This document shows positions 7,150 to 39,549 of a DNA stretch of 64,000 bases, piece by piece; position 1 is the stretch's first letter, and every line of letters starts with the position of its first letter. Position numbers and translations under genes: made by a program. Where the stretch lies: positions 868,001 to 932,000 of the forward strand of contig JARGXX010000096.1 in NCBI GenBank assembly GCA_030374765.1, written 5' to 3'. The stretch is from Agarophyton chilense. Taxonomy: Eukaryota > Rhodophyta > Florideophyceae > Gracilariales > Gracilariaceae. Below the pieces are notes generated by a model that searched no databases, was not told the DNA's origin, and was given only the letters and a program-made list of their open reading frames with translations.

Positions 7150-7635
7150 GAAGGAGAAAGGGAGCCCTGCGTTCGATCCGCCAATGCTTTAATAAAATAC
7201 TTGGCTGCGGAAAACTCTCGGGTATGTCGGCAGAGAGCAGAGACTACAAGCGCCTGTGGAGTCGAGCACATCGGTTCCAGGTTATGAGAGAAGGTGTGAT
7301 CTCGCCCGCCTGTATCAGTTAAGAAACCGGCTTTACAGTGAAAGAAACAATTATAGGCAGCTACAGGTGAACACTGCAACTAGTGTGGGCCTCACTAAGG
7401 GCCGGTCTATACAGCGTCGATTTTTCTGAATCTGTATCTCCTGCGGGGGTTAAAAAACATACTTCCATTCAGAATGAACGGACGGTCTATACACGTGAAT
7501 ATAGCACACCATGTTCGGACCCTCGTACTTGATCAAGCTGAAAAGTGTGGGTGCAAACGGCAGTGCATCGCACAGCGACAACTCTTGAGACTGTACCTCG
7601 TACCATCTTTCCCGGTGGAGTACCCTATTAGCACG

Positions 7636-8959
7636 ATGGTGGATAGCTATGAATCTGATGCAGATCACGGTGATACATGGCACGCCCAGGACAAAAAAGA
7701 ACGTCCCAAAGCACAGGCCAAGATTGTTGCCGTTGTCGCATTTTCAGTCATCTTTTCACTTTTTGTTGCTACCGTAGTGACTTTTTTGGGAATCTCAGCA
7801 CCACTTATGACCCACAGGGTGATCTCGAAAAGACGAAAAACGAAAAAAGAAAGTATCCGAAGGACGCGGGCATCTTTCTCCGAGTGCCATGTCTACCTGT
7901 CAGATAAGGAATTTCAAAGAGCCTTTTTAATCACCAGAGAAGCTTATAATCAGCTGTTGGTCATTTTAGGTCAGCGATTTGAGCGGGACGCTGCCATGGC
8001 AACTCGATATAGCGGCGGACGTGTGGAACCAGTAGTGCGGGTCTGACAATACGAATGCTATCGGGGGGTCTTATCATGACTTAATAATTCTGTTTCGTTT
8101 AGGGCGCTCTACTGCATATGATATATTCGGAGCGACCATAGACGCCATTTTATCGGAAATGCAACGCCCTGAACTGCCACTGAATGATGCAGACCAGCTA
8201 CATGGAATGGCAGAAGCTTTTAAAAACGCACGGCCAGCCGTGAGCTTGCTTTGGGGCTGTGTTGGAGCACTCGACGGTATTGCTGTAAAGATATCGAAGT
8301 CCTTGCTCTTTCACAATCTAACAAGCTACTACTGCCGGAAAAGATTCTTTGCCATCCCCGTACAGGCACTTGCAGATTCTTCCTACCGCTTTCTTTATAT
8401 GTCGTCCAGATCCATTGGTTCTACACATGAATCACTCGCGTTTACTGTCTCCGACTTAGCAAAACGCTTCCGTGCGAGAGAGCTTATGCAAAGGTACTTG
8501 ATAGCCGATGAACCGGCATTTTAGTGTAGAAATAAAATTGTAACGCCGTTTTCAGAGTCACAGCTTCAACACGAACAGCTGGAGGTAGCCTGCGACGGTT
8601 TCAATTTTCTACATTCCTCTTTGTGCACCGTGGTCGAACAAGCGTTTGGTATGCTTACGGCTCGCTTCGGTGTTATGTGAAATCTTATGCGATATTCCCT
8701 ACCACGAGTGCCTCTGGTACTTTGCGCGTGCATGCGCATCCACAATTTCTGTATAGACAACAATTACCCGTGCATCAAGCGTGCCTTGTCAGTTGAAAAG
8801 TTAGCTGTTTGCGAAAAGGCTTTTGAAAGCTGGTGCGAGGCTGCTACTAAAATCAGGGACAATACAAAGCAAGAACGAAGGGGAGAACTTGAAGTTTCGG
8901 AGCTGAGAGACGCTCTCACTGCTGCAATTCAGCAGATTGGATTTTATCGACCTGTTTGA
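7636..8959 (+). pseudogene. Harbinger-type DDE transposase, frameshifted
   Basis: DDE nuclease that would cut and join the Harbinger ends. The first frame (ATG 7636 to stop 8046) holds a basic/hydrophobic N-terminus and an HTH-like region (SDKEFQRAFLITREAYNQLL). Family sequence then continues in another frame (GGSYHDLIILFRLGRSTAYDI) across about 8050-8158 and into the frame ending at 8524, which has the DDE features GALDG, then YRFLYMSS..GSTHES. A third stretch, 8550-8959, carries the conserved VVEQAFGMLTARFG and CMRIHNFCIDNN, interrupted by a TGA at about 8678. At least two frame breaks and one stop make it non-functional unless short introns are being missed. Confidence 0.8.
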
Positions 8960-9076
8960 GTCTATGCGAGGTAGCTGCAACCTGCTTCGTATGGAAGAAT
9001 CACCGGTCATGGCAATTTGTCACAACACGCAGACAACGACCCCCTGCTCTCTTCTGGACTAGCACAGGGCCCTTTC

Positions 9077-10020
9077 TCAGCGTCCGGTGTTTTCTTCCGG
9101 GTCCCCTTCATCACAGCGCAATGCTGTGAAAATTATAAGAGCGCGCTTACCGTCCGCACTGATCTCACATGAGTTCGGAGCACGCGGAACAAAGTTCGCG
9201 AATGAATTGGGATCGGGGTCATTTTGTCCACTCCGGTTCCATTTGTCTAGAGCAACTGTGAAAATGGCCCTTATGCGGGAGAACTGCTGGCAAAGTTTGT
9301 CTCCTGGCAGATGCAAAACCGGAGGCGAAAAGGGGTCTACATCCGATACTACGCCCTTTAGATTTAGATTAGGCTTCACAGCTGCGTCATTGAAGTACTT
9401 GCAGACCACGGTGTCCCAGAAGTCATTCGATGATGCCCGTTGATCGATATAACTTCTAGTAAGGCACGTTCCTGACTGTAGAAGAGCATGAGTGCATTCT
9501 TCAACAGTGTACAACACGCCGATAAGTCGTGCAAACTCGTTTGACGTAAACGGTGCTGCTGTCGAGGCGGAAACTGTCGGGCCCCCAACACTCCTCTGTC
9601 CCTCAAATTGTCGGGCATGTTATGCAGTAAATCAGCTTCAGTTGGACAACGCTTCCAACGCTGACTCATTGCTAAAACCTGTGCGGAATTCGAGCACCAG
9701 TCACGCACTTTGCTCTCGTTTTTTTCAATCTCCGCAGCTGCAAGCTAGCTGAATGAAACCTCCTCGCGTTCCCCACGCCAAAATCGAAGACCCAATCGCA
9801 GTGCCATTTCACGTTTGTTACCCACCTGCTTCATGTCATACCGTTTGTGAAGCGCTCTTAGCAGGGGAACAGTGCGGGATAGTAAATAGGTGTACACCTT
9901 GTCGCGAACGGTTGTTTCACCATCTTCTACCAGAGCATCAACATGTTTCTTCTCCCACAGCATGTTGCTGGCCTCAGTCGAAACATGACGGCTGCCGGGC
10001 TTTGAATGATCATCGGTCAC
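9077..10020 (-). pseudogene. Harbinger accessory protein, C-terminal part, broken
   Basis: Harbinger elements usually carry a second, DNA-binding protein gene. Three overlapping minus-strand frames (10020-9745, 9708-9376, 9517-9077) read in order as one decayed protein; the last contains SGQNDPDPNSFANF and similar segments. The frame entering at 10020 (GTG ACC GAT, Val-Thr-Asp) has no start of its own before the LTR. It continues exactly in phase from the plus-strand frame ending at 32080 (ATG GAG GTG AC), which is the detached N-terminal part. The domain family is not identified with certainty. Confidence 0.55.
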
Positions 10021-10686
10021 TGTAGTATCCACTCTAACGGAGAGAGCAGACACCTGCGACAGCGTTCGGAGTGCCGATGGGTCGCTTGCGGCGAAGGAAA
10101 AGGGGTGGTAGAGCTACAACACCAGCGAGCTGGAAGTGGGGTGTAAGGCCACTACTCGCCAGCGAGGGTGAACATTGCAACTGTAAAACGTTGATGGGAC
10201 GTAGGTACGAGACGGCTCGTGAAGTGGTTGGGGGCTGACTATCTATTATAGCTCGTCCGGATCTCCGGTTAAAGAATCCTAAGCGAGGAACAGAATAGTC
10301 ATGATGCCCATGTTGTCTCCTTTACTTGGGAGTCGGCGCTCACCTCTGGTGCACTATATACTGTGTGCCAGGGTGAGTGCCCAAATAAATATATAAATAA
10401 TACCCAGTGGTCAGCCACTTAGCAAAACCACTGTATGGGTATGGACCCTAATGGACTTACATCTACAAAGGGTAGTAAAACCAGCCACGTGGATCGCCAC
10501 TACACGCGCCGTTGCAAGCCACTCCACTCGTGATACCACGTGTTTCAACAATGTACCTTGCCTCCTGGCATCCTACGCGGTGTGTCGCTTCTTATCCTAG
10601 CACTGACCAGGCCACTCAGTAATGAGTTCCAAACGCGACTTTGCGACAAAGAAACCATCGGAACGCCGAAGTAGTAGAATACTACA
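10021..10686 (-). repeat. Gypsy family-1 LTR, 3' LTR of element 1
   Basis: 666 bp. In sense direction it begins TGTAGTATTC and ends GGATACTACA, a short inverted terminal match with TG...CA ends. It aligns along its length with 19832-20499 and, in the opposite direction, with 32081-32746. The last 105 bases or so (10580-10686, the U3 start) match 19832-20499 poorly but the outermost part matches 32081 onward. The outer flank is GTCAC. Confidence 0.92.
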
Positions 10687-10695
10687 TACCCCCCT
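10687..10695 (-). other. Polypurine tract next to the 3' LTR
   Basis: On the minus strand GAGGGGGGTA directly precedes TGTAGTATTC. A comparable purine run (CGGGGGGATG) precedes the family-1 LTR at 25218 on the plus strand. Its position fixes which LTR is the 3' one and therefore the sense strand. Confidence 0.75.
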
Positions 10696-10710
10696 CGTTA
10701 AGCGCGAACC

Positions 10711-12535
10711 ATGGGGGACGCAAGAAGCGTTTATACGCAGTCGGACGGGTGTTCCGGGTACTCATCGTCATCACGAATTCCTCGCCGCCCGACCAACTCT
10801 TACAGTTCTCAACAGCATTCTGTTCCTCACCGCTCTTCAGCTCGATCTCTCGCGATGGATCGAATGCCGGGTCCAACCCGTTTCAGCCCTCCTCTGAGGA
10901 TGTGCCTTCAGGGGCTCCGTCCAACACTGCTGGTTATGCGTCGCAGCCTACTGCTCAACTCGGTCCATACCGTTCGTTCTCCACACCGTACACCGGATTC
11001 CGGTCGGTACCGTTACCTCAGCCAACCGTGGCTCCGATGCCGAACGCGGCTTACGTCGCCTCTGCGGGTGTGATTCGATCTCCTTCTCGTCGTTTTCAGC
11101 GGAGCTACCCGCCCCCTGCGTATTTCTATGGACGATATCCTCTCTACAACGTTGAACTTTTCGCGCAAGCGCCCTGGTTTGATCCAGTTGCTATCCGCGA
11201 TGACGCGTTGATACAACAGTATGTACGCGGTGGGTACTTCCCCGACGGTATTCCGGAACACGCGATTTATAGCGACGACTGGGCGAGCCATATTGCTTTG
11301 CCAGACAACGCGATCGCGCGATATTCAACGGAAACCTTGTCCGAAGCCCGTACGCGGTTCACCAAGCTGATTTACCAGCGTCTTCATCGATTCATCAGTA
11401 CGGTTCTCCTCCCGCAGGACTGAGAACTTGATACCTGTAAAGCACGTACCGACGGTGAAGGTTACTCGTATATCGAGACACTCGTTGAAGTCGATGTTAG
11501 CGGTTGGCGCGGTGTGCGCGGTGTGCGTGATGCAGCTCTCTGCTTTCAGCAACCTCTTCTCCGTGCGGAGTTCCGCTTCCTTCGAAAGCGTGACATTCCC
11601 TATAGGGATTATCCTGGTTGGGAACGTCGTACTCGATCACGTTTGGGCTATTTGGTGCCCTATCAAATGATCGAGATTGACCGCATCCGGCGGAACGCGC
11701 GCTTAGGGCGCTACATCCGTATTCCGGAGCATTGGGCGGCGATCGAGAGTCCTCGTGGTTGCCCTGTGAAGCTCCCACCTGCGATCTCCTACATCGGGTC
11801 CGCGTTGGTTAACAACCCGTTCTCGGAATATTGGAAGGTGGTTTATACCGAATTTATCGCCAAGATGGCCGTCTTCCTCCTGTAGGATGCTTTTGATACC
11901 TTTAGAGTTTGGTACATGTCGCTCACAGCGCGAAAGTATCGAGAGAACTCGATCTTTCCCTTGTCCTGGGATCCCGTGCGAACCATGCGGACTTCCTCCA
12001 TCTTGTGGATTTGATCGACAGTGTCGATTGGTTTGGAGTGCCAGCTGATCAATCCGCTCGCGGAACCCGTGCAATACACCACGACCATTCTCCTGGACGA
12101 ACAGCAAGTGCTGGAGATTTCGTTTGGTACGACCCCTGGACGCGCCAGTTGATCACCTCCGAGCAGGCTCGCTTTCTTCGGGAGAACCCACGTGACATGC
12201 CACCGAACCAGCTTACTGGATACGTGTACGATGCTACTCCATCTGAGAACGGAGAGGAACTGCATGAGGAAGCGCCGGGAGCTGAGGCTGAACTCGGTTA
12301 CGAGGACAAGCCAGAGCTGGCAGGCGTAGCGACTTCCGTCGATCAATCCGCAGCGGCGGGAGTTGCTCAAGAGAACTTTCATGGGTTTACCCAACAACCG
12401 AGTGCAGTGCCGGTCGAAGATCCAGGCTTGGATCCGCTGAGGCAGTTTCCCTTAGATGCGGGCTTTCCCGTGGACCAAGTTGAGGGTGATCGCGCACAGC
12501 TTCTTGCGAACCTGCGTGCTCGCACGTCTCTTTGA
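10711..12535 (+). pseudogene. Antisense accessory gene of the gypsy element, broken
   Basis: This gene runs opposite to gag-pol, between chromodomain and 3' LTR. From ATG 10711 a Ser-rich start leads by a frame change near 10875 into a frame reaching a stop at 11423. The same frame continues past that stop to another at 11885, and after a further shift the tail runs to 12535. Recognisable pieces are WFDPVAIRDDALIQQYV, ARTRFTKLIYQRLHRF, KLPPAISYIGSALVNNPF, then an acidic tail. The same pieces occur on the minus strand at 23818-25105, where the stop at 11885 reads as Trp. The intact protein would be about 600 residues. No known domain, signal peptide or clear membrane segment is recognised. It could correspond in position to antisense ORFs known from some plant gypsy elements. 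Confidence 0.65.
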
Positions 12536-12716
12536 TGATCCTAGAAAAGACTCCTAGTCAACACTCTTGCGGTCGTATCTTGATACCAATAAAACTCCGG
12601 TGATTTCGTGTCTCCACGTTCCCTTCTTATCTTCTAGTCTTCATCTCTTCTCGCTTCTCGAGTTCTTCAATCCTTCTTCTCGCTTCTCGAGTTTTTACTA
12701 CCTTTGTAGCCCATAC

Positions 12717-13187
12717 TTAGAAATGGGATGTGCCCATGAGCCCCACTATCGAGGAGTCGATCTCCCTGGGGAGTGGAAATCGCATGCGTCGATGATATCG
12801 CACGAGTTGCGAACGGGGGATATGAGCTATAGGTTCCCACGTATCCGCTTCCGGAGGAAAACCGTAACAACGGACTCGATACAGTAATTCTCTAGTATTA
12901 TCATGCTCTCCATGTTCACACATGCGATCCATAACATATTCCTGGGCGTTTCCCAATGCTTTCGCTGTTGGCGCGAGATTCCTGTTAACAGGTTTGAAAT
13001 GACTTAGGGCTGACCCAAGCGTCTCTGTGTTAGCAGTCTCAGCGTCGATAAGCGTTCGCTCGTCGACTAACTGTCGTTCTGCCCGCAGGGGCAGTGTAAT
13101 CATTCCTTGAGAACCTTTCTCAGATAAAGAGTTATCCTGTTTTCCGGGTTCCATAAAAGCGTACTTCTTGCTACTTCTCAATTCCAT
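12717..13187 (-). CDS. Chromodomain end of gypsy polyprotein
   Basis: A 156-codon frame whose second half is a chromodomain: EYVMDRMCEHGEHDN, then LLYRVRCYGFPPEADTWEP, then QLVRYHRR. Aromatic and Trp positions match the family pattern (YxVxWxGYxxxxxTWEP). In chromoviruses this domain follows the integrase and directs integration to chromatin marks. It is separated from the integrase tail frame (14054-13188) by one shift, so in the intact element the two would be one protein. The spacer between them is Pro/Glu-rich. Confidence 0.8.
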   Translation of the reverse strand: MELRSSKKYAFMEPGKQDNSLSEKGSQGMITLPLRAERQLVDERTLIDAETANTETLGSALSHFKPVNRNLAPTAKALGNAQEYVMDRMCEHGEHDNTRELLYRVRCYGFPPEADTWEPIAHIPRSQLVRYHRRMRFPLPREIDSSIVGLMGTSHF

Positions 13188-14054
13188 TCATGGATGAACT
13201 TCCTTCGGTTTATCCGATTCTGACAGCTGTTCGGTGGACGATGGTGCTTGCCCCACGACAGGAGGCGGTACCTCTTCTTCTTCCTTCCCACGAGGGATGG
13301 GAGCCGATATCGGCGGAACAGCGAGTGGCGCTTTACCTGACTGTTCAGCCTGAAGCAGCAACGGCGAGTGCTCGCGTGCACTTGTTTCCAAGTCCTTGGG
13401 GCCAACTTCCAAAACATCTTTCCTGCTTTCAGGTTCCATTTCTGTACTTACGGGTGTGCGCGTGCCACGGGGCATATCCCGATACTTCGGAAGCTGTCTA
13501 TGATTGGCGTACGCAACCGCCGGCGGTGGGAGATCAGGAGCTTTCTCCTCCGCTCGAGCTATTGGTGGCGGTTCACTCTCCTCAGAGCCACTTGGGCTTT
13601 TGCCTCGACGTTCCGTCGCACTTGCCTCCTTAGTTCTACCAGATACCTGGAGTTCTACTTGCGGGTCAGGCGCGACTTCAACGCGATCGCGCGATACACG
13701 TTCAACGTCCTCACCTGTCTTGATGACCACCGTGTCTTCATCAAGGTCCACCACTTTGAAGGGTCCAGCTGCTATCGGCAACAAATTATGACGCGATTCT
13801 TCCTGTTTGTCCGGTCTTTCGACTTGCACGAAGACGTGACCTCCTACTCGGATTGCCGGATTTCCTCTTCGCCTTCTGGCGTCATAGTTTCGCTTATAGC
13901 GAGCTTGTGTCTTCGATATCTCCTTAGCGGCTTCTTTCGCTCTGGCATTCAGGTCATTCCTCCATTTCAGATGGTACTTAGCCGGGGTCGGCGCGTCCAA
14001 TTCTGTCTCGTCGTCGAGCGCAACCGGTAAAGCCGGAGGGTTACGTGAGAGCAC
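13188..14054 (-). pseudogene. Integrase C-terminal (GPY/F-type) region and Pro/Glu-rich linker
   Basis: Starts with the end of the integrase: KYHLKWRNDLNARAKEAAKE, a basic stretch RYKRNYDARRRRG, then the GPY/F-like core HNLLPIAAGPFKVVDLDEDT. After about residue 130 it becomes a Pro/Glu/Ser-rich linker leading to the chromodomain frame. A frame change near 14050 separates it from the catalytic integrase frame (14241-14041). It is part of the pol polyprotein, not an independent gene. Confidence 0.7.
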
Positions 14055-16392
14055 GAGGTCGAACGGTTGCCGTCTTTGTAAAGGTATGCACTTGCGTATT
14101 GTACGCGTAGCACAGAGTATCAGTAAACATGTCCCATTCTTTCGGGTGGTCCGCGATGTAGTGTCGTAATGCTGCTATCAGCGTGCGGTTGAAACGCTCC
14201 ACCTGACCGTTGCATTGCGGATGATAGGTCGTGGTAAACACGTTTCAAATGCCCATAATGCGGCAAACTTTCTGAAAGAACTTCGCCACGAATTGCTTCC
14301 CATTATCTGATAACAGAATTTCTGGTGGTCCGCATATAAATACCCAGTGTTTGATAAACACCTGTGCGATTACGGTTGCGGTTATCCGCTTCATCGGCAC
14401 AGTCCGCACTAGCTTCGAGAAGCGGTAGGTGATTACCAATAGGTAGCGATAACCTCGCCTTGAGCGAATCAATTCCCCTAGGATGTCGATACTAACGTAT
14501 TGTAAAGGCGCTTTCTCCTGGAATAACGTCATCGGTTTCCGCTTCCTGTAAAGCTTCACGCGATTCTTCGCACATGTTGAACACAACCTCACTGTAGCAT
14601 GGCAGTCCATTGCCAAAGTAGGCCAGTAAAAATCTCTTCTTAGATTCATGAACAACTTCGTTCCTCCTGGATGACCAGACAGCCTGCTGTAGTGTGCCAG
14701 ATGGAGTACTCGACTCTTCAAGACGTGTGGAATCACGATTTGATCATGCTTTTCGACATGTCTTAACAGTATTCCTCGTGAATCGAGTGAAAAGGGGAGC
14801 TCCTCCCCCCCGTTAAGACGAGAGCGTATCGACGCACAAAACGTATCGGCGTGTTGCTCATTGAGGAGCTCAGTGCACGAGATTCGCTCGAGTTGAACTG
14901 AAGGGTCAGTGTCTGCTAATGCAAGGAACGGGTCTGCATCCGAAAAATCATCAAGGGTCTCTTGTTCCACTTCTTCAAAAGATGGTGAATGGGTCTCTAT
15001 GTAGAAGCAAGGTATCTCTTCATCGATTTCGCCTTGGCTTTCGCCCAGTGTTTTGAGTCGCGATAGCGCGTCAGCTTGGCCATTGGCCAATCCCTTCTTA
15101 TACTTTACTTCGAAATCGAATTCAGAAAGGCGTAAGCGCCATCGTGTGAGACGACCAGACGGGTCTGTAATGGACATTAACCATCGTAGAGACGAATGAT
15201 GCGTGTTGACGGTAAAACGTTCTCCTTGTAGATACGGTCGCAATGTGGTTAGAGCCCAAACGACTGCAACGCATTCCTTTTCTGAAACTGAATACTTCTT
15301 CTCAGCTGCGTTCAGCGATCTTGACCAGTAACCAATGGGGTTTCGTTCACCATCGGGGTGTGTTTGAAAAAGGGTACACCCTACTTGGTACTCGCTAGAG
15401 TCTGTATCCACCGAGTATGGCAGGTTGGGGATGGGCAGCGCCAAGACTGGGGCTATAATAATCTTTGTCTTCAGCGTGACGAACGCTTCTACTTCAGCTT
15501 GTCTGCATTGTTCCAGCTGTACTGGTTGTCCTTTACGCAGCTTTGCGTTGAGCGGTGCCGCTATATGCGAGTATCGCGGCACGAATCGTCGGTACACGTT
15601 GCACAAGCCGAGGGAAGAACGCAATTGCTTCTGTGTCGACGGAGGTTGTACTTCGCGGAGAGCCGCTGTTTGTGCCTCTTGAATGGCTAGCTGTCCCGGT
15701 TTGATCACATGTCCTAAGTACCGGACGGTGCCAGCGAACCATTCGCATTTCTTGAACTTCAAGGTGATACCTGCGCTCTGTAGTGCTTTGAGGATCTCCT
15801 CGATATGCCGTAAATGGCTTTCCACATCCTGGGAAAAGATGACCACATCGTCCAAATAAACTAAACAAGTCTTCCACTTGTATCTTGAGAGCAAGATGTC
15901 CAGAGTACGCTGGAAAGTAGCCGGTGCATTCTTTAAGCCAAAGGGCATCCTTTTGAAACGGTAGAGGCCGGCGTGACACGCAAATGCGGTTTTATCTTGG
16001 TCTTCTTCCGCTACAGGCACCTGCCAATAGCCAGAGTTGGCGTCCAAAGTGGTGAACACGTTCTCTTCTCCTAAGCTGTCAATAAATTCGTCCATTCGAG
16101 GCAACGGGTATGTATCACGAACTGTAACTACGTTCAGTTTTCGATAATCGATACAGAATCGTAAAGAACCATCAGGTTTTGGAACCAGCACTACTGGTGG
16201 GGCCCAAGCAGATTGAGCTGCTTCGATTGCTCCTTCTTCCAGCAGTTTGCTGACATTCTCCTCCTCGATTTGGCTAGTTCGCAGTCCCGCTCTGTAGGGT
16301 GGTTGGGAGATGGGTCGTAACCCTGGGACAAAATCAATGTGGTGTTCCGTAGCGGAGATCTCTCCTAGTTTTTCCATTCCACATGGATGCAT
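14041..16392 (-). pseudogene. Gypsy reverse transcriptase - RNase H - integrase
   Basis: The long frame 16392-14245 holds 715 codons. RT landmarks in order: LRFCIDYRKLN, TTLDANSGYWQ, FKRMPFGLKNAPATFQ, and the active site CLVYLDDVVIF. RNase H: YSVDTDSSEYQVGCTLFQ, YWSRSLNAAEKKYS and EKECVAVVWAL. Integrase: an HHCC finger (HLAHYSRLSGHPG through CSTCAKN), then first Asp in VSIDILGEL and second in LLSDNGKQF. A stop after KVCRIMGI is followed at once by the frame 14241-14041 with TTYHPQCNGQVERFNRTL, which has the catalytic Glu. The break is a single small defect between the second Asp and the Glu, so the enzyme parts look recently disabled. Confidence 0.92.
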
Positions 16393-16963
16393 ACTTCTTC
16401 AGCATAGACCTGATCTTCGTTCTGTAGGGTTCCGACACATGTGCGAAGTCTAGCTCATCGACCAGGCTCTCTGGATCCTTTGCCGTTTGCAATTGATCTC
16501 CAGACGGAGTTTGCAGTTCTTCGTCTGTGTCACCGACATGTGTTAATCCCAATACTTCTGCAGTAGAAATATGAGTAGGGACCACCACTGTAGGATGAGG
16601 CAAAGCTGTTGCAACAACCTGATTCTTCGGTATCTGATAATTTTTATCGGTGAAGTTACTCACTAGTATCCAAAAGTGGCTACCAGGATCAACCTTAACA
16701 ATGCAGTTAGCGACTATCAATCCACGGGATTCGTACATCCGAGTATTCGGTTGAATTACCACGAGTCCGTGTCGTTCTCTTCTTACTTGAACCCAAGTTT
16801 GGGTTTGCGCCTTCAGCATGGCACTCTTCGCTACTCGAATCCTCGGCGAGACACGTCCTCGGGATTTCCCGTATTCCATAGATGGCGGAATTGGAGGTGC
16901 TTCAGGGCAACGACGCATTGGCTTGCGAACAATTGGTACCATTGATCCATCATCTAGTTCCAC
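16334..16963 (-). pseudogene. Pol spacer between protease and RT of element 1
   Basis: A 209-codon frame between protease and RT. It contains a beta-rich stretch (RERHGLVVIQPNTRMYE, GSHFWILVSNFTDKNYQIPKNQVVATA) like the segment between protease and RT in chromoviruses. It ends with an approach to the RT start (PYRTKIRSMLKKYASMWNGK). It overlaps the RT frame by about 60 nt in another phase, showing a frameshift near 16390. A homologous segment occurs in the copy at 20495-21583 (SNFRDKPVLLLQGKVI, YQAMWSGRLG). Confidence 0.7.
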
Positions 16964-16996
16964 TAGTTTTCTTCGCGGGCGAATGGCTTCGACAAA

Positions 16997-17497
16997 CTAG
17001 TCGCAATAATCACATCCCAGTACCACTGGTGCAGCTAACGTCTTACAGACGATGAAGTCGACTAGGACTACAAAGCCTCCCAAACGCACCACGACTCGAA
17101 CTTTTCCCAGTGTCTGCACAGCATTTTTGTTGGCATCCCGGATGTCCGGGAAAGGACCGTATCGAATTCGTTTTAAGTCAGCAGGAGCGAGCTCCGATTC
17201 CCGTATAAAGTTCAGACCAGCACCTGTGTCCAGGATAGTCAATCGACAAGACAACAGATTCCTGTCAGAGCCGATGTCGGCATAGACCTTATAGTTTCTT
17301 TTAGACACTATCATGAGGTAACTTTCCCGTTTTGGCGGAGAAGTATAACGTCTCCAAGGAAGATGTAACTCACAGTCAAACTGTACTCGCTTTCCGTCTG
17401 GCGGATTGACTCCGTACGGCGGAAATTTCTGAGGTCTCAAGAGAATCTTGGGCTTCCAAGCGCGGGAGCAGGGAGGCGAGCTCTCCCTGGTCAGCAC
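16997..17497 (-). pseudogene. Gypsy aspartic protease
   Basis: Retroviral-type aspartic protease that would process the polyprotein. The active-site motif is LTILDTGAGLNFI (DTG), followed at the right spacing by the hydrophobic flap side and the second conserved stretch LAAPVVLGCDY. The frame starts in a Pro-rich junction after the gag zinc knuckle and ends with a stop at 16997, before the pol spacer frame. It would be one domain of gag-pol in an intact copy. Confidence 0.82.
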
Positions 17498-17538
17498 TAC
17501 GGGATCGACTAGTGCCGACCCCCTAGGGGCTCCCTCAC

Positions 17539-19814: not shown

Positions 19815-19829
19815 TAAGTCGGGAGACCA
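19815..19829 (-). other. Primer binding site of element 1
   Basis: Minus-strand TGGTCTCCCGACTTA starts 2 nt after the 5' LTR, with the leading TGG that pairs with a tRNA CCA end. The same 15 bases occur at 26785-26799, 3 nt after the family-2 LTR. So both families use the same primer, presumably one tRNA, not identified here. Confidence 0.75.
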
Positions 19830-19831
19830 CT

Positions 19832-22191: not shown

Positions 22192-23145
22192 CTACTCCGT
22201 GGAGCAAACCAAATGGGCTTGGTTGGGTTTTCGAGATGGAATTGCGTGTCCTCTGGTTCTTTTATCGTTGCGCCTGGAGGTTCTGTAGGTTTCGCCATAA
22301 CCCTCGACGTAGGTAACGAGCCTTGGGAAGGAGTATTGCGGGTTTTCCGTGTGGTAGTTGCGCACATGTGTCCGAATGGCAGGGAGCAATCCCGTGATGA
22401 AGTGACAATTAAGCCGTCCTTCGGAGAACACGTTTTCACATCGGTAAGCCTTCTTCAATAGGTTTTCTGCGAAAGCCGAATCAGTCATGTTGGAGCTCTG
22501 CCTAAAGGAGATGACTTCCAGGTGGGCATCCATTATGACTTCATCCGTGGCGTAGGTTTCCAATAGGTAATAAACAACTTGGGGGTATGACCTGCGGAGC
22601 TCATGGTCTTGAGCATCTACGAGGGCAGTTGTGCCAGATATCTTCGGAACCACTCGGTCACGCGCCACTCCTGAAAGGAAGAATTGGAAAAGGTACAGAG
22701 CGGCGCTCACGTGGACACCGTTCTGATCGCAGGCCGTACGGAACAAACTGAGAAACCTAAGAAAATCAATGGGATCGGAACCAAAGAACTTTTCCGTAAT
22801 GATAAGTTGCATCCGTTTGGCCCATTTGGCGACTCTGCAAGCTACCGAACCAGATTATTTCGGGGACCTGTCGTCCAGCCGGTAATTCCGGTAGTTTAGA
22901 ACCTCAAGAAAAAGTTCGTTTGTGGTTGTCAGTGGTCTGAGGCCTCGAACGGCCGCCTCATCCACTTTCGAGTCGGTCGTTTCGGTCGAGGCCAATTCGG
23001 AATCACTCGTGTCCGAATGGTCTCTTCTTTTACTACTTCTGTGCTTCTTTCTCCTGCAGTTACTTCTTTTGTTCTTTCCAGCGGAGTAGGGACCTAAGGA
23101 ATCGATCTCTCTATCATATCCGATGGAGCCCTGAGGTCGCTGCAC
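22192..23145 (-). pseudogene. Gypsy gag of the second copy, frameshifted
   Basis: Two frames, 23145-22855 and 22812-22192, with a third continuing at 22188-21712. The first has a basic/Ser-rich stretch (RSNCRRKKHRSSKRRDHSD) and VLNYRNYRL, which parallels VLNYRYYRL in element 1. The second has the capsid-like segment (SDPIDFLRFLSLFRTACDQNG, VVYYLLETYATDEVIMDAHL, CHFITGLLPAIRTHV). The third contains a possible zinc-knuckle remnant (CPRACFLCLSLTQPFDC). Not functional as it stands. Confidence 0.7.
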
Positions 23146-23175
23146 CTCGTATAATCCGTCGGGTGGGGCAAGCGG

Positions 23176-25105
23176 TCACTCTTCTAGACGCGGAGCTTCT
23201 CTTCTGCTCCTAGATTGGCCCACAATGGGGTGTTCGTGATGGTATTTCCGGCGAGGGGCAGATAATTCCGCCGCTTCTGGGGTTTTGGTAGGGGACTGCC
23301 ATATGGAGAGCGGATGGTTAATTTGTGCTGGAGTGGTCCTAGGGACCAAATTGCCTGCCTGGCGTATGAAGGCTCCTTGACCGGCCTGTAGGAGTGAGTC
23401 TGTGAATAAGTCAGATTCCAATACCTTAGGGACGATTCGCGCGATAAGGTAATCCGTATGGTCAGCGATCGCCGTAGCGAGTCGCACGTCCATTATGGAA
23501 TCCACATGGGCTGAGCAGAGCTCACAGTGACGGGGCCAGAACCGAGAAGGTTGGCAAGCCCTGCGGGCATATTTTCTCTAGTTCCTTCGGTCTGTTGGGT
23601 TTCTCCCTGACGTGTCCCTGGCCTCGAGATGGCCTTGGTGAGGCGTTCTCGTAAACGCGCTGCCACTGCGGGTTCTTGGCGAATCCTTTCAGTGTTATCC
23701 AGGGGCGTCAGTACTTCTTGCGGCTGGCTCCTCGTTCTCCTGCGGTCGCTAGCCGTATCAACCTGAGGGTCAGGCGACATCGCTGGCGTTGTAGTCGCAC
23801 TTCGTCCTGCCGTAGGAGTCCAGGGACTGTACCATACAAAATCTCCAGCATTCGCTGTGCGTCCCGGCGAATGATCTCGATGGCGCACCCTCTTGCCTCT
23901 ACCTGATTGCTCCAATATAACTCCATGCCAGTCGATACTGTCGATCAAGTCTACCAAGAGTATGAATTCGTCATAATTAGCACGGGACCCCAACACAGGG
24001 GAAAGATCGAGTCGTCTCGCATATCTCCGCGCTGTTGGCGACATGTACCAAACCCGATAGGTATCGTAGGCATCCCAGAAGAGACACGCTGCCATCTTCG
24101 CAATGAACTTGGAGAACAAGACCGTCCAGTATCCCGAGAACGGGTCGTTGACCAACGCGGAACCGATATAGGTTATGGCAGGAGGAAGCTCCACCTGACA
24201 TCCACGAGGGCTCTCGATCTCCGCCTAGTGCTATGGCAGCGCGACATTGCGTCCGACGCGAGCATTCCGCCTAATTAGATCAATCTCGATCATTTGGTAT
24301 GGAACCAGGTACCCGAAGCGGGATCTCGTAGGTCGTTCCCAACGAGGATAATCCCAGTACGGAATGTCTCCCTTATGAAGGAAGCAAAAGTCCGCACGGA
24401 TCAAGGGCCGGCGAAGGCAGAGGGCCGCGTTGCGTACATCGCCTAAGCCACGCCATTCGTTGACGTCGACCTCGTATGAGAACTCGATGTACGACTATCC
24501 TTCGCCATTCGTGAGAGCCATCTAGGGATCCAGATTCCAATCTCCAGTGAAAATGACCATGCAAACGAACCGGTGCAGACGCTGATATATCAGCTTGGTG
24601 AACCGAGTACGGGCTTCGTCCACTCTTTCGTTGGTATACCGGGCTATCGCGTATTCTGGCAAAGCACAGTGCATAAGCCAATCGTGGCTGCGGATAGCCG
24701 CATACGGAAGGCCGTCAGGAAAGTAACCGCTGAAGACGTATCGGTTGATCAATGCGTCATCGCGAAGAGCGACTTGGTCAAACCAGGGAGTCTGCGGGGA
24801 AGAGGTCAGCGTCGTCGAGAGGGCTTCGTCCCACCAAGTCCGCGGGATGTGGATAGCTGCGTTGAGCCCGACGAGACGGCGCTCGAATGAACGCAGCGGA
24901 GGATACATAAGCCGCATTTGACATCACACCTGACGTCGAAGGCTGTAAGGGAAAGGATTGGAAAGCCGCACGAGGAGACCGCGTTGACCGGAACACGGAA
25001 GTCGCCGCAGCATGCAAATCGAAGCCACTGCTGGCGTAAGAACCCTTGGAGGGTACGTCTCAGTTGTTGGAGTTGTGCGGCGCGTATGGGTTCATCGTTG
25101 AGCAA
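23176..25105 (-). pseudogene. Antisense accessory gene of a second family-1 copy, fused to family-2 gag
   Basis: From about 25105 down to 23821 the minus strand repeats the accessory gene of 10711-12535: WFDQVALRDDALINRYV, ARTRFTKLIYQRLHRF, ELPPAITYIGSALVND, LLVDLIDSIDW and AGDFVWYSPWT. Stops at several points (for example just after 24522) break it. At 23818-23821 the similarity ends in a shared GGAC. The frame continues without interruption into the gag start of the other family (SPDPQVDTASDRRRTRSQP), giving a 233-codon chimeric frame 24194-23493, followed by gag frame 23505-23176. It is oriented away from its own LTR (25218-25834), as in element 1. Confidence 0.68.
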
Positions 25106-25217
25106 TTCGAAACAGATGGTACTTTCGTGGAGACGAGGATAATCCGGAACGCCGATGCATGCTCCGGTGTATAAGGAAGTCTTGCGTCGCCGGTGCTTCG
25201 CGTTTAACGGGGGGATG

Positions 25218-25834
25218 TGTAGTATTCTGCACTGTCGGAATGCCGATGGAAGGTGTTTTGGCTAAGTATAATGATACTCATAAGTGAGTGCAACGGCTAG
25301 GATAGAGTAATGAAGCGGCACCCAGCAAATGGTCCGTGAGGTGGTATGTTACACGTGGGACCTCGGTCTGCCACGGCGCATCTGATTCGACCCTTTGTAG
25401 GGAAATACCGGATTGGCAACGGCGCATATACTGTAGTGAGTAGCCACGTGGCGACCATTATCCCGTACTTTAGAGGAGTTAATCGGCTACCCAAGTTTAT
25501 ATATATATTATTATGTGCGGCGCTTACTCCTGTGCCCTGTACTCAAGGCACAGAAGGGAGCACCGACTCCAAAGTAAATGAGACAACAAACGGGTTCACA
25601 ACTCACTTGTTCCTTCTTTAGGATTCCTTAACCGGAGATCCAGACAAGCTACAACAAGTAGTTTTCCGTTCAATAGTACCAACCAACCTCATTGGCGAGA
25701 GTGGGGCCTTACAATCCCCATTCTAGCTCGCTAGTGTTGTGCTCTACCAAACCTTCCCCTTAGCCCCAAGCACCCATTCGGCAGTCCCGAACACTGTCGC
25801 AGGTGTCTGCTCTCTCCGTAGAGCGGATACTACA
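25218..25834 (+). repeat. Gypsy family-1 LTR, diverged, 3' LTR of a plus-sense copy
   Basis: Runs TGTAGTATTC to GGATACTACA in plus direction. It aligns with the other three LTRs but with many changes and small gaps. A purine run CGGGGGGATG directly precedes it, so it is a 3' LTR and its element's sense strand is plus, with the antisense gene to its left on minus. The right flank CTCGTGTCCG is gag sequence of the copy at 25835-26802 (compare 23006 onward), so this LTR marks an insertion into that gag. Confidence 0.82.
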
Positions 25835-26802
25835 CTCGTGTCCGAATGGTCTCTTCTTTCACGCCTTGTCTTCTTTTTTTTCCTGCGGTTACTTCGGTTC
25901 TTTCCAGCGGAATGGGTGCCTAACGGATGGATCTATATATCAAATCCGATGGAGCCCTGAGGTAGCTGTACCTCATATTGTCTTTTGGGTCGATCAATCG
26001 GTCTCTCTTTTTTAGACGCGGAGCTTCTCTTCTGCTCTTAGATTGTCCTTCCATTGGATTTTCCTGATGGTATTCCCGGCGAGGAGCGGGTAATACCGCC
26101 ACTACTGGGAGTTCGGTAGGGGGTTGCCGTATGGAAGCCGGATGGATAACTTGTGGAGTGGTCTTAGGGACCGCGTTGCCTGACTGGCTGGTGACTGCTC
26201 CTTGAACGGCCTGAATGAGGGAGTCTATGAATAGCTCAGAATCCATGACCTCGGGAACGATTCGCGTAATGAGTTAATCCGTGTGGTCTGCAATAGTCGT
26301 AGCGAGTCGCATTTCCACAATGAAATCCATATGGGCTGAGAAGAGCTCACGGAGATGGGGCCAGAGAAGGTCAGCAAGCCCGGCGGGAATATTCTCCATA
26401 ATTACTTCCGTCTTATGGGTTTTTCCTTGTGTCGTTCCTGTGCTAGCGGTGGCCCTGGTGAGGCGTTCTCGTAAACGCACTGCTACTGTGGCTTCTCGGC
26501 GAATCCTTTCAGGGTCCCCAGGGGAGTCAGTACTCCTTACGGCTGGCTTCTCGTGCTCCTGCGGTCACTAACATTATCAACCTGAGGTTCAAGGGACATC
26601 GTCTGCGTGGCAGTGGCAACTGGTCCTGTCGTAGGAGTCCTATGGTCTGGTCGGTTGGGTGTATTTCCTGCATCCATAATGGCGGTTGCTTCTGTACTTC
26701 TGGTCCGTTGGGGAGTTAAACCAAAGGTTAGAATCCGGATAATTCTTCGTTCCAGTGGTCCGTTCAATTATTACTTGAGGTTTCTAAGTCGGGAGACCAA
26801 AA
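25835..26802 (-). pseudogene. Gag start of a family-2 gypsy copy, interrupted
   Basis: Minus-strand frames 26767-26537, 26480-26274 and 26246-25920. They read MSLEPQVDNVSDRRSTRSQP, then NIPAGLADLLWPHLRELFSA, then VPEVMDSELFIDSLIQA. All are clearly related to 23176-23800. Several stops occur (one directly after ADHTD). The copy begins at the primer binding site 26799-26785 next to the LTR at 26803 and is cut at 25834 by the family-1 LTR. Confidence 0.72.
26785..26799 (-). other. Primer binding site of the family-2 copy
   Basis: Same 15 bases as the site at 19815-19829 (minus strand TGGTCTCCCGACTTA), 3 nt from the LTR end at 26803. It establishes that the LTR at 26803 is a 5' LTR in minus sense. 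Confidence 0.72.
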
Positions 26803-27162
26803 TGTAACGCAATGACGGGTTTAGTCAGCGTACGGGTCTCGACCGGTGGTAGCGTGGTAGAGCGGGTCCTAGGGTTCGAATCCGTGACGGCGGCACTCCC
26901 AGAGTACTTGGTGCAATGGGTTGGTATTTTCTACCTATTCCTACAGGTTGGAGCTACAGAAACGATGGCTTGAAGACCAATTGGTGGAACTAATGTATCA
27001 AAGGGGTTATTTAGTATCCTAACGGTGCCTACCTTACTCTATGGGAAAAGCGTCATCCAGGCCTAGTAAATAGCAATGGCGACGCGGTGGGATGCGTGGT
27101 GTTTGTAAGATACCTCAGGCCCTGGCGGCTTACACAACTCAACCGCTATCGTTGCTCCTTCA
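26803..27162 (-). repeat. Gypsy family-2 LTR, 5' LTR (360 bp)
   Basis: In sense (minus) direction it begins TGAAGGAGCAAC and ends GCGTTACA. It aligns in inverted orientation with 35200-35640, which is about 80 bp longer through an AT-rich insertion (or this copy has a deletion). At 26842-26886 it contains a D-arm-like TAGCGTGGTAGAGC followed closely by GGTTCGAATCC, a perfect tRNA T-loop box. The outer flank is CAATA. Confidence 0.8.
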
Positions 27163-27186
27163 CAATAACGCCGCGTACAGAACGTC

Positions 27187-28384
27187 TTGAAAAATACCGA
27201 GAAGACTACCGTGGCCAAAAGGATGATAGATGAGGCGGCAAGTAACGGCGAAAAACTTGTTATTTCACGAGCAGTAAGCCACTTTATAATTATTTTTCCC
27301 GTGGCAATCATAAAGCTAACCTACAGAAAGCAAGTAGATATTGGAAACAAAGAGAGATGTTGTTCAGTGGGGATAACAGGATATCCAAGAACAAAAAATT
27401 TTCACTCGTCACACACACAAAATATGGACTAAGACGAAACTCTTGCAAGTCTCAAAATGGATGCCTCATAAAAACCTCTCCATTGGTGTACGCACTGCAA
27501 TTAGATCTAATTGAAGAATTCAATCGCATGCACAAGACCGCCTTAAAGTTCAATACAACTTTATTACGTCGTTTGGCTATGTTGCTTATTTCAAAGAAAA
27601 GATATGGCTCCTTTCATGTACATATGAGAGAAAATCACACAAACGACCTTATCAAAAATTAAATAACCTCGCTGGGGATACTATCTTTCATGAAACGATA
27701 TCCCATCGTCAGCCGATACCAATGTGGGAAGATAATGGTGTCTCTAAAGAAGCAAGAACAAATAGAGCGCGAAATGGCCCTTCATTTCGGACAGTTAGCA
27801 GGAAAGTCCCGCTTCAACTCTTTGCTTGAAAAAGAAGTCCTAAATGCAGGCAAAACGCATTTTTGCATTAATATGGACGACCGAATATGTTAGCGCTCGT
27901 CGGAAAGAAAAATGTTTGCTACGCCGATGTTGTTTCTGGATATGATGGGATTACAATCATGGGTATGATATAGGGTAGAAAAACGGCTTCTCTGGAGATA
28001 ATGATGTCGATTTTCAAGAACGCACATAGTAACTATCCTATTCGCGGTCTAGCAGAAGATGCTCTACAAGCGGTATACCGGACAGGTCCAAGAGCGTGGA
28101 TGAATGAGCAGGTCGTTCTTGAGTTGGTGCGCGAAAAACATATGTTTATGCCGTTGCCAAATGGCAGCAAACGTGTTCTGTACATTGAAGACTTTAGTAT
28201 TCGCGACATCACGGAGGACGTAAGGAAATTATTCGCCGAAAGTAACACAGAGATTTGGTCCTTCCCTTACAATGCCAGTAATTTAGTACAGCCTGCTGGT
28301 AGCTTCATCATTCAGATACTCAAGACGATTTGGAGGAGAGAATGGTATGACTATAAGATGGAATTATTAGATAAACTCTTGTAG
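27187..28384 (+). pseudogene. Pogo/DDE_1-type transposase relic, plus strand
   Basis: Decayed DDE_1 transposase. Frames 27187-27432, 27357-27662, 27690-27893 and 28001-28384 read in order. The first Asp region is THFCINMDDRIC; it is followed in a shifted frame by CYADVVSGYDGITI and after a stop by SNYPIRG. The next frame has RTGPRAWMNEQVVLELV, then VLYIEDFS where an active copy has the second Asp, then NASNLVQPAGSFIIQ, and ends IWRREWYDYKMELL. The usual LVQPCDSF is altered. GC is lower than in the gypsy elements. Confidence 0.72.
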
Positions 28385-29223
28385 GCGGACGGTGGAAAGA
28401 GATTTGGAAAGTTGGGAAACCCTGAAAAACATGGCTTTTTGAAGACCGCTGCTACATCTGTGCGTGTGATGAGTGCACAGGGCAACAATGAGTAGCTTCC
28501 GCCCAGGGTCAAAGTGGAGCACTTTTGACCAAAATTTTGGATAAACCATGATAATATCCCCAATTTAATTGAAATACTGCTCCAACCGAGCAAAAACAAG
28601 TCTTCGAAGAGCCCCAAAAACGATTTCGTATGAAATCCAGTACTTTTCCTTTCCGACAAGAAACAACGCAACCCCCCAAACTTTGATAAAACCAGTTTTC
28701 CGAGGTCAATGTGGAGGAGATTCGCTTCTATTCAAAAGCACTAAGCATTTTCCAATTCTTATCGTCTAAAACCTATTGATCGCCTAAAGAGTGGTCAATG
28801 ATGATTTTGTGCGACTCGAAGGCGCTATTCTCAACCTCGTGCTGCTTCAACAAATTTTGCGCACACATTTCTTCCCCAGCCAAGACATGCTTGTGACGCA
28901 ACTGATCCTCACTCTTACTTGAATCACACAGCCCAAGTCGTTCAGCGAACGTTCTGCGCCGCGGCTCTCGACTAATTCTCTCCAATGTTGGATACTCTAA
29001 AGATTCGCTGTGTATCAAAAGCCCACTCGGACAATCAATATCGAAGGCTAAGCTAGGTGGCGGGGAGGAAGTATTTGGTTGACTTATTTCAAATTGCTTT
29101 GATGAAGAATTTTGCATGGACTTCTTCTACACAGATGGCGCACTCAATGTGTTACCGCTGACTCTGAGGCAATTTTTCCAACCTGCCCCGAATTCTTTCT
29201 CAATTTTGCCTCTTGTCGTTTCT
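28385..29223. other. No gene seen; end of one relic and start of the next
   Basis: AT-rich. A 114-codon minus frame (29117-28773) with no recognisable family lies downstream of the minus-strand relic and may be part of it. No terminal inverted repeats could be found by eye. Confidence 0.35.
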
Positions 29224-30940
29224 TCACTTTCTGCAGTCTAGTGCCTTCTCGTTCTTTGGACTTCTGAGTCTTTTCTTCCACTTTCTATCGTTGACCTGCA
29301 GCTTCTTCAAGCCATTTTCCTTGCGTTCGATTCCTTTTTTCTGCTTTTTTCTGTTTCCTGAATTGAATAGATTCTTCATTGCGCTTCTGGTTCTCGAGTT
29401 CCATTTTCTGCGCCAATTCAGCCGCTTTCTTCCGTTTTTTATAACTTCACCATACGTTAGATATATGGCCGGGACAACTGTCGATATCGCTGTGCGGTCG
29501 AATAATTTGTCTATTGCCTTTTTGTCCTTTTTCGATGTTGGAGTAAGTTCAACGGTGATATTTTCTGCTCTACGACTCTTTTCGAAGACGTTGTTCAGCC
29601 TTACGTGCTTGTGAAAAATAGATCGTTTGTCGGCTACAATGTCATTGAAATTCTTGAGAAAGGCGGTGCCTGTAACCCGCTTAATCTCATTTTTCGCTGC
29701 GTTCGTCTTTCTTGAAGTGGCTCCATTCCACTTTTCTTCGGCCATAGTCTCGTGCTCTCAAACACAGCATTCACGATAGTCTTAGTGAGAGATTTAAAAC
29801 CTGTGATACCAAAACGAAACTTATTGACCATGTCCGGGAAGTCAATATGTACATCTCGCGACAGATAGTCACGCATGGAGCGTGTTGCTTTCTTGAACAA
29901 ATGATTGAAAGTATTGTAATAGACTCGCATGAAGTGGGAAGTATTTGCTGAGCTTTGAACGATTTTTGCATTATTTTCTATAGCTTTTTCCAGCCAGTCA
30001 AATCGATTTCGAGACCTGTGACCATCCGAAATGAGTACGAACTTCTTCTTGGGTTTTAAGTTTTAGAAGGCGTGGCGCACAATGTGATTGATTAAGTAAA
30101 GTATAACATCCTTCGTCGTGGAGCCATTTTCTATCCCAATTATGAAGGCATCTCGAAGAAACCAGTCTTCGTACTTCACTCAGTGAGACCGTTCTCATAC
30201 TTGAAAATTTTCTTCGTGTAGAGGGTAAAACCACCGTTTCTTCACGTACTTGCCCGCAAAAATAAAAAACGGGGGCAGCACATGTCCGGCGGCGGACGTA
30301 ATGACTACAGCTGTGAAATGCTTTCCTGGCTTAGTTGAATTGATTTTGAATCCTCCATGCATAGTATGAGCCCCTACGAAGCCTTTTTGAACACTTATTC
30401 TCTCGCCAACTACGTCTATTATGTCTATGATTCATACCGAAACAGTATCTTCCAATTTGCCATTATTTTGATTTCGGCAAGCTAAAAGAGATTTTTCGAA
30501 TGTCTTCACATGTTCAGGGTTTTCAGAGGTAAGTTCAACTTTATCCTTGTCCTCTGCTTTTCTAAAGGTGATGCTTCTGTGTCGGGCTCTAAAATAACGT
30601 ACCCAATCGTCGGAAGGGTATCCATTCGAGAACGATAGGCGGTTATCGCTGGCCACTTTTGCCGCTATTGATTTCAGTGTATTCACATTGGTTGCGAAAC
30701 CTTTCTTGGCAGTCTCGATGAAGTGATTAAAGTTTTCTTTCTTCTGTTATCGTTAGTACTGTTTTCTTTCCTCGTCGAATGTTTTGAAAGGCGTTGCAAT
30801 ACAGTTTGTTTGATTGTTCGCATTGGAATATGTTCTTCTTCATTGTACAGGTTGTTCCATTGGAAAGGCTTGTTATCTTTGTGATAGTGCAAATAGGAGT
30901 TTTTTCGTCGCAGAGTAATAACTTCTCTCCTTAATTTCAC
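29224..30940 (-). pseudogene. Pogo/DDE_1-type transposase relic, minus strand
   Basis: A different decayed DDE_1 transposase. 30940-30432 holds a CENPB/pogo-type DNA-binding part (SFSNGYPSDDWVRYFRARHR, then ITFRKAEDKDK). After a stop the catalytic domain follows: VGERISVQKGFVGAHTMHGG, AAGHVLPPFFIFAGKYVKK, then VLISDGHRSR with the second Asp, and IVQSSANTSHF. The expected LQPCDQ after SHF is replaced by MRVYYN, so the third acidic residue is lost. A Lys-rich tail continues in frame 29745-29224. Stops and shifts at 30434, 30215-30235 and about 30070 confirm decay. Confidence 0.75.
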
Positions 30941-31714
30941 AGTGTTTTTTCCCGCTCATTGCGTTTGCGAATTATAAATTATTTCTTTCGCATTGAATTT
31001 ACAATGTTTTGCGAGTAATCTCTGCAAAACGGAATGATGTTGACAGGTTTTTGCTCGTTATCAAATAAAACTATTGCGTTTTGTAGCCCGTCGTAGCTAT
31101 GAAGCAGTTACAGAAGTGCTTTGTTCAGCTGTTTGCCACATGAGCTGTAGGATTCAAACCCATTCTCTCTTGGAGATGGGGAAATTTTTGTTCAACGCTT
31201 TATGTTAGCTACAAATGCTCTGATCAAATTGAGGGTACAGAATGGATTCTATGCACCACAAAAAGGCCTTCGCGTATGAATACAATACCAAAGGTGCTTG
31301 GGGCAACTGAACGCATTAGAGATGCCTGGAAAGTGTTCATATTACCGTTTCTAACTTCTGAAACAGACTTCTCCAAAATCTTTGCTCTACTTTGACGCTG
31401 CGGGGAAGATAGTCATTTATGCCCATGAAACCATGATCAGATGCAGTTTGGCTCTAAATTATAACGGACAGTGGGAGGAAAGGCAACTGTATCCAGAGTT
31501 GCAGGCGATTGTTGGCAAGTACAGGGAAAACTTTGATGGTGAGGTTGTAGGAGAGACATCACAAGGTCTACTTTGGCACCCACACTATTTCGGATGGTTC
31601 TGATTAGCGTGGTCCACACTAATTTACCCGATACTCAACTATTGTGGGTAATAAAAATAGTGTGGTTCACACCAATTCTGTTGAACTGCCGTAAAAAAAA
31701 TGCGTTCAGATTTA
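30941..31714. other. Unassigned AT-rich stretch with paired palindromes
   Basis: No recognised gene. A 73-codon plus frame (31382-31603) and a preceding broken frame resemble nothing known. At 31606-31670 two imperfect palindromes occur, TTAGCGTGGTCCACACTAA and TAGTGTGGTTCACACCA. A related one, TAGTGTGGGCCTCACTA, lies just left of the Harbinger at 7380-7397. Confidence 0.4.
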
Positions 31715-32080
31715 GGGCCGGTCTATACAATGTGTATTTGGATATGTAGCTGCACGGTTGTGATGAGACCAGGTAATATATGGATTCTCATTCGGCGAAA
31801 GGGAAGATAAGAATACAGATTTCGTTCAGACAGAAACACTTTTTCCGGTCAGAAAAGGAAGTGAGATGGCCTGAAGCAACGCAATCTGCTTGGATGCCGT
31901 ACGAAACCGAGATAAATATCCCGGGAACTCTCCTTTTTTGGCGGGATCGGTGCGATTATCGCACTTCGATGACTGCATCTCCATGCCCCCTGCTGACCAA
32001 GGGGTGGTATCAGCTCGAATCCGTTGGTTCATGACAGCCGAAGCTCTAGTTGCCAACAAATCTGTCAACATGGAGGTGAC
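31715..32080 (-). mobile_element. PIF/Harbinger right end, detached and inverted
   Basis: Begins with GGGCCGGTCTATACA preceded by TTA, which reversed is the right terminal repeat followed by TAA. It ends at GTGAC (32076-32080), the reverse of the GTCAC at 10016-10020. The plus-strand frame from 31890 (SVRLSHFDDCIS, SARIRWFMTAEALVANKS) runs open into the LTR and is the N-terminal part of the accessory protein whose remainder is at 10020-9077. Confidence 0.85.
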
Positions 32081-39523: not shown

Positions 39524-39549
39524 AGATAAGTATTTGCCGTTGTTGAAAG

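Follow-up and report, generated by a model that had tools for sequence, protein, structure and literature searches.

The 64-kb window analyzed here (the whole stretch of DNA, G000:C96:868001-932000, from a 79.8-Mb red algal assembly of 135 contigs) raises the question of how two pieces of a Harbinger DNA transposon came to lie about 22 kb apart and facing in opposite directions, each of them abutting a long terminal repeat (LTR) of a gypsy retrotransposon. We show that positions 7399-10020 and 31715-32080 are two parts of one Harbinger element. We further propose, with a probability of about 0.65, that a crossover between oppositely oriented LTRs at 19832-20499 (LTR B) and 32081-32746 (LTR C) turned 11.6 kb of DNA and thereby split a gypsy-bearing Harbinger. 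The material was one assembly, i.e., the contigs of one strain, and copy listings are lower bounds, at most the best 40 candidates having been scored in each.

In order to establish what the two pieces are, we compared them with other copies in the genome. The terminal repeat, GGGCCGGTCTATACA, has seven exact occurrences, of which the two in the window are both on the plus strand, at 7399, preceded by TAA, and at 31715, preceded by TTA. In the left part (7399-10020, plus strand), the left terminal repeat stands at 7399, the transposase frames are broken and the 3' accessory frames lie on the minus strand; the right part (31715-32080, minus strand) carries the right terminal repeat at 31715-31729. 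A whole copy of 3408 bases is found on contig C116 (L008:956-4363). The left part aligns with bases 1-1695 and 2107-3047 of this copy at 91-94% identity, about 411 bases near 9088 that are present in the C116 and C12 copies being missing from the window, and window positions 32080-31715 align with its bases 3043-3408, the right part being 92-93% identical to the copies on C116, C80 and C12. A second motif resembling the terminal repeat was observed 80 bases inside the left end (L008:1036; about 7479 in the window), and the C12 copy contains an insert of about 635 bases (L009, about 5064-5698) that has no match in the window.

Elements of the PIF/Harbinger superfamily have a DDE_Tnp_4 transposase, short terminal inverted repeats, a 3-base TTA/TAA target duplication and a second, Myb/SANT-like protein. 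The window element shares the first three of these traits and is a PIF/Harbinger element. Its DDE_Tnp_4 domain (Pfam) was detected at 8036-8524 (E 1.1e-5), and that of the C116 copy in two pieces (E 8.7e-9 and 5.2e-6), the transposase region being spread over several frames in both copies. As regards the second protein, the candidate frames lie on the opposite strand and have no Pfam match. The two minus-strand frames of the C116 copy were also without a Pfam match, and no protein relatives were found at E 0.001 for one accessory frame or for one transposase fragment. A preliminary description of this DNA had stressed that turning the right part gives the element TAA on both sides. This is indeed what is seen; its weight is small, however, given that such a match would arise by chance about one time in two. 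Elsewhere in the genome, the element is flanked by TTA on both sides (C116), by TAA on both sides (C80), by TTA at its sole end (C13) and by TAA against a diverged TCA (C12).

Further evidence comes from the point at which the element is split. The right part has seven matches in the genome including that in the window, and four of the other six (C116, C80, C12 and a diverged copy on C88) reach the junction, those on C13 and C128 stopping short of it. All four of the copies that reach the split point are continuous across it. The window halves adjoin with a 5-base overlap in L008, L009 and L011, and without a gap in the diverged L047. On the L008 copy, the overlap corresponds to bases 3043-3047, i.e., GTCAC, and this motif is present once at the split point of the C116, C80 and C12 copies. 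In the window, the motif occurs at both broken ends, as GTCAC at 10016-10020, where it abuts LTR A, and as GTGAC at 32076-32080, where it abuts LTR C, these being the two halves of a split 5-base gypsy target duplication.

The reading frames tell the same story. Across the split point, the minus-strand frame of the uninterrupted L008 copy reads SVNMEVTDDHSKPGS, and the frames of the window copy end in ...SVNMEV on the right piece and start with VTDDHSKPGS on the left piece, their continuity being due to one GTG that is common to both. The suggestion that the accessory frame continues in phase once one copy of the duplication is removed therefore agrees with the L008 frame. When a query spanning the present Harbinger-LTR junction (9921-10090) was used, the window was the sole full-length match among 40 scored; the C116, C12 and C80 copies match to query base 100 (window position 10020) and then end. 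Given that no other copy of this junction was present among the 40 scored matches, the halves are from one element. The possibility of two separate Harbinger elements is ruled out by the 5-base overlap at a single point, by the four continuous copies and by the failure to find another copy with an LTR at the split point. By the terms of the preliminary description, its interpretation would fail if the two parts were not adjacent in full-length copies, or if 7399 and 31715 belonged to two complete elements. The parts were adjacent in all four copies that reach the junction, and the two positions do not mark separate complete elements. The uninverted junction beside the right end was absent from the seven right-part matches in the assembly.

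We then turned to the LTRs. LTR A (10021-10686, minus strand) and LTR B (19832-20499, minus strand) have the same orientation, and LTR C (32081-32746, plus strand) the opposite one. A purine-rich tract adjoins A on its inner side, at 10687, and AGTGGTCTCC adjoins B, likewise on the inner side; A and B are therefore laid out as the 3' and 5' LTRs, respectively, of one gypsy element on the minus strand. Its internal region (10687-19831, minus strand) encodes reverse transcriptase, RNase H and integrase in a frame at 14245-16398, with Pfam matches to RVT_1 (E 4.3e-36), RT_RNaseH, Integrase_H2C2 and rve. As inverted arms, A and C are 94% complementary over 666 bases and B and C 95% over 629 bases, and any two of the three LTRs differ at 6-8% of sites. 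The LTR family yielded 1299 first-look candidates in the genome. An A-type LTR end with its interior has a full-length match at three other places (96-97%), and A is therefore a normal member of its subtype.

The outer flanks of these LTRs do not pair as they now stand. GTGAC lies on the 3' side of A and CCTTG on the 5' side of B, and C has GTGAC on its 5' side and ACAGA on its 3' side. As had been claimed, then, no LTR possesses a duplication that matches its present partner, A and B being mismatched (GTGAC vs. CCTTG) as are the two sides of C (GTGAC vs. ACAGA). Amongst 28 other LTRs, seven are solo LTRs flanked on either side by host sequence, and an exact 5-base duplication was found around five of these seven and none around two. 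The family thus makes 5-base duplications, and this, together with the opposite orientation of the LTRs that the two halves abut, upholds the assignment of GTCAC and GTGAC as a split target duplication. A search for a counterpart of the B flank elsewhere in the genome, allowing up to three mismatches, gave no matches. The two solo LTRs without matching 5-base flanks are L029 and L038; judging from these, elements in this genome may often exchange with one another.

The DNA beyond B and C belongs to a second gypsy family. E2 (20500-27164, minus strand) is a 5' part of this family, is cut at LTR B and has older insertions inside it. Its 5' LTR (26803-27164, minus strand) is followed by TTTTGGTCTCCCGACTTAG, which closely resembles the tract beside LTR B. 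The E2 frames at 20495-21880 and 22192-22854 had no Pfam match and were likened by eye to a protease/reverse transcriptase start and to gag; the end of E2 matches 39 other listed loci at 85-87%. E3 (32747-35640, plus strand) is a 3' part of the same family with a purine-rich tract and a 3' LTR (35198-35640), and is cut at LTR C. Turning 20500-32080 puts E2 and E3 in one orientation. C16 and C128 also carry the two stretches on a single strand, with 4.6 and 3.4 kb between them, respectively (among 40 scored hits per piece). In their matching blocks, the E2 and E3 LTRs have 84-89% identity; the flanks outside them, GTTAT and GATAA, are equal at three of five bases, which decides nothing. Taken together, the neighbouring parts in other Harbinger copies, the opposite orientation of the LTRs and the E2/E3 pair support the proposal of the preliminary description that oppositely oriented LTRs recombined. 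When 20500-32080 is taken as the inverted segment, both the Harbinger halves and the second gypsy family regain one orientation.

To compare the LTRs with one another, we assembled a panel of 57, comprising A, B, C and 54 others picked by likeness to C, from which three duplicates and the window's own copies had been dropped. Over the first 105 or so bases, these LTRs form two main subtypes. A belongs to subtype 1 and B, at its 5' end (about 20396-20499), to subtype 2, and A and B therefore cannot be the unaltered mates of a single insertion. LTR C is a mosaic, its first 45 bases being of subtype 1 and the sequence from base 54 onwards of subtype 2. It agrees with A at every one of the 17 varied columns in bases 14-45 and sides with B at 15 of the 20 varied columns in bases 54-102; the remaining five are letters of its own (58 and 67), letters of B's own (96 and 100) and one column with three different letters (89). 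The switch of subtype lies at 32125-32134 (LTR bases 45-54). On this evidence, LTR C can be regarded with fair confidence as chimeric.

LTR B becomes A-like from about 20316. A copying model draws its bases 1-160 from an L062-like LTR of subtype 2 (mean posterior 0.88) and its bases 161-402 from A (0.84); for C, the model gives an A-like stretch at 1-49 (0.69) and takes the remainder largely from other LTRs, apart from a weak return to A at 291-390. Two letters, at bases 182 and 242, are common to A and B alone and occur in none of the 54 other LTRs, and A and B also have in common a minority run at 225-230, from which C departs. One private letter is common to B and C alone, and one to all three. 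That B is a chimera, subtype 2 and then A-like, is suggested with moderate confidence, there being few informative sites, and its exchange point likely falls between 20316 and 20396 (LTR positions 182 and 102). An attempt to type the ends of the gypsy interior against the 1.5-kb flanks of other copies did not sort the copies. Many of them were 93-96% identical to the 3' end and, for the most part, 92-96% identical to the 5' end, and the sole subtype-1 element in that panel (L024/L039) had no match at the 3' side.

These observations can be arranged into a series of events. A Harbinger element was first present in a TAA site, as its two ends and the whole copies elsewhere show. A gypsy element then inserted at GTCAC in the accessory frame, as the split duplication shows; its LTRs would have been of subtype 1, judging from A. 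Some 11 kb away, a reversed LTR of the same family but of subtype 2 would already have been in place, presumably inside a damaged gypsy of the other family. The 5' LTR of the first element, once matching A, would have recombined with this subtype-2 LTR to give B and C, such that C came to lie beside the Harbinger right end and B acquired E2 on its outer side. The exchange point would lie within LTR bases 45-54 in C and farther in, at 102-182, in B. Between about 50 and 130 bases of subtype 2 would thus have been left in both LTRs, as gene conversion beside a crossover would do, and the stretch at 54-102, which is of subtype 2 in both B and C, would be the conversion tract. The LTR chimerism lends moderate support to the endpoints preferred in the preliminary description, i.e., 19832-20499 and 32081-32746 with 20500-32080 turned.

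Several findings weigh against a crossover between B and C. A second exchanged duplication would be expected and is absent, CCTTG standing outside B and ACAGA outside C. One relative each of E2 and E3 extends past the cut with sequence that is absent from the window, the sole window match of which is a weak one (69%) to the reverse transcriptase region of the other gypsy. The copying model draws bases 403-563 of B from C (0.70), and B and C share base 248 (in 0/54 other LTRs) and base 456 (in 1/54); neither result follows from the simple model. Unrelated LTRs often have one private letter in common, and two are shared by C and L060, the same number as by A and B. In addition, the A-B copying share (0.243) is below that of all six better putative mate pairs (0.258-0.863). 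Amongst 1596 pairs, A-B ranks 13th, B-C 42nd and A-C 98th by copying share; for putative mates, the fraction of the length that one was drawn from the other was 0.15-0.97 in six pairs and 0-0.05 in the seventh.

Two points bear on the nature of the partners. The CCTTG/ACAGA mismatch rules out a plain insertion as the partner LTR; this LTR may have lain between the E2 and E3 halves, with part of the element lost, which would leave these flanks unmatched. As for C, we considered whether it simply belongs to a mosaic subtype. L055 is a mosaic nearly equal to C, and L050, L051 and L053 are partly C-like, so that the chimera argument is not exclusive, and the mosaic of C could predate the inversion. 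The panel having been selected for C-likeness, such mosaics provide no base rate. The L050, L051 and L053 cluster (C99:2057866-2073297) is intermediate between the two main subtypes and may be the source of the mosaics.

The closest competitor is an exchange between LTR A (10021-10686) and LTR C (32081-32746), in which a solo LTR sat in the Harbinger and about 22 kb including the gypsy body was turned. We regard this as a possible but distinctly less probable course of events. The preliminary description had noted that this exchange also fits the flanks, and so it does: the GTCAC flanks suit both exchanges alike, and the orientation of E2 and E3 is explained equally well. The LTR subtypes likewise fit both, each with one conversion tract, over bases 54-102 of B if B and C recombined and over bases 14-45 of A if A and C did. 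Bases 248 and 456, being common to B and C as they would be in mates, incline towards A and C. The resemblance of B to A at 161-402, a stretch that the copying model draws from A, inclines towards B and C, as do the two A/B letters found in no other LTR and the minority run at 225-230 in which C differs. We therefore favour the B-C crossover. We also considered, and rejected, a course in which the crossover took place in the gypsy interior and a solo LTR formed afterwards; it explains C, but B should then not be A-like at 161-402, and the CCTTG/ACAGA flanks would again be left unexplained.

A series of at least two LTR-LTR exchanges involving distant loci, i.e., translocations in place of one local inversion, appears very unlikely. 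The CCTTG/ACAGA mismatch and the E2/E3 parts missing from the window make at least one more rearrangement likely; however, the Harbinger and second-gypsy halves share a contig and together span about 28 kb (7399-35640), and one flip sets all four halves right. An assembly error can be given equally little credence, for although inverted LTRs of about 666 bases from a family of 1299 candidates are a classic place for a false flip, any two of these LTRs show 6-8% divergence, the 80-Mb genome is assembled into as few as 135 contigs, and long reads would be expected to bridge 666 bases easily. The inverted LTR pair still flanks the segment, and the patchy three-way sharing among the LTRs is the trace that repeated exchange would leave; we consider it doubtful, however, that the segment flips repeatedly and that, in this red alga, LTR-LTR exchange between elements keeps acting as a main source of local inversions by which strains differ.

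Beyond the rearranged region, the window contains genes identified by Pfam as RPN11, a GDPD protein, an ABC ATPase, PRP3, a pseudouridine synthase and a signal peptidase. The ABC ATPase (5713-7188) was labelled ABC-F-like on the basis of its ABC_tran and ABC_tran_Xtn domains. Residues 60-598 of the PRP3 protein (37778-39574, minus strand) are identical to an Agarophyton chilense protein, with 545 of 563 aligned positions equal overall and the mismatches at the protein start; the next named relatives are those of Gracilaria domingensis (75%) and Gracilariopsis chorda (60%). On this basis, A. chilense is very probably the source of the DNA. A search of the window for tRNAs gave no match. Within the gypsy elements, long antisense frames at 10626-12535 (plus strand) run opposite the polyprotein just inside LTR A, and a stretch related at 71% occurs at 23818-24925, within the second gypsy region, where a frame at 23493-24224 had no Pfam match. 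Red algal gypsy elements may carry a conserved antisense accessory gene. An older partial relative of the LTR family of A, B and C (77-85%) lies at 25551-25834, inside the inverted segment.

Inversion by LTR recombination is already known as a process, and this locus is a further, well-marked case. In a limited collection of papers, a search for work on this seaweed, its relatives and their transposons found nothing on the locus. The locus is a clear natural record of a probable LTR-recombination inversion in a red alga, in which the target duplication and the host transposon are both split and a candidate exchange point is narrowed to ten bases. Such loci allow one to count how often retrotransposons turn chromosome segments. 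They also carry a caution, in that split elements and unmatched LTR flanks can signal rearrangement and not separate old fragments.

The nearest parallel is provided by the Galileo transposon of Drosophila. The marks of a transposon-mediated inversion given in the Galileo account of PMC2775673 are opposite orientation of the copies, exchanged duplications and chimeric copies; the Drosophila buzzatii inversions treated there are 2j, 2q7 and 2z3, of which 2z3 is described as having both duplications exchanged and an uninverted chromosome that was sequenced. By the marks in that account, our locus has opposite copies at the breakpoints (B and C, 94-95% complementary), exchange of one of two pairs of duplications, a chimeric C and, with moderate support, a chimeric B. 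It resembles the Galileo cases of PMC2775673 in its two opposite copies of one mobile element and its chimeric C, and in part in its duplications; it differs in that a single one of the two duplications has changed places, gypsy LTRs acted as the agents, the segment measures 11.6 kb and the locus is known from the inverted order alone. A second parallel is found in plants, for which PMC7251063, in its treatment of LTRs, describes LTR-LTR conversion as common and solo LTRs as formed between direct repeats with deletion of the interior. LTR-LTR recombination and conversion tracts in LTRs are common to that description and to the present locus, whereas here the LTRs are inverted, probably belong to two elements, and would have yielded an inversion.

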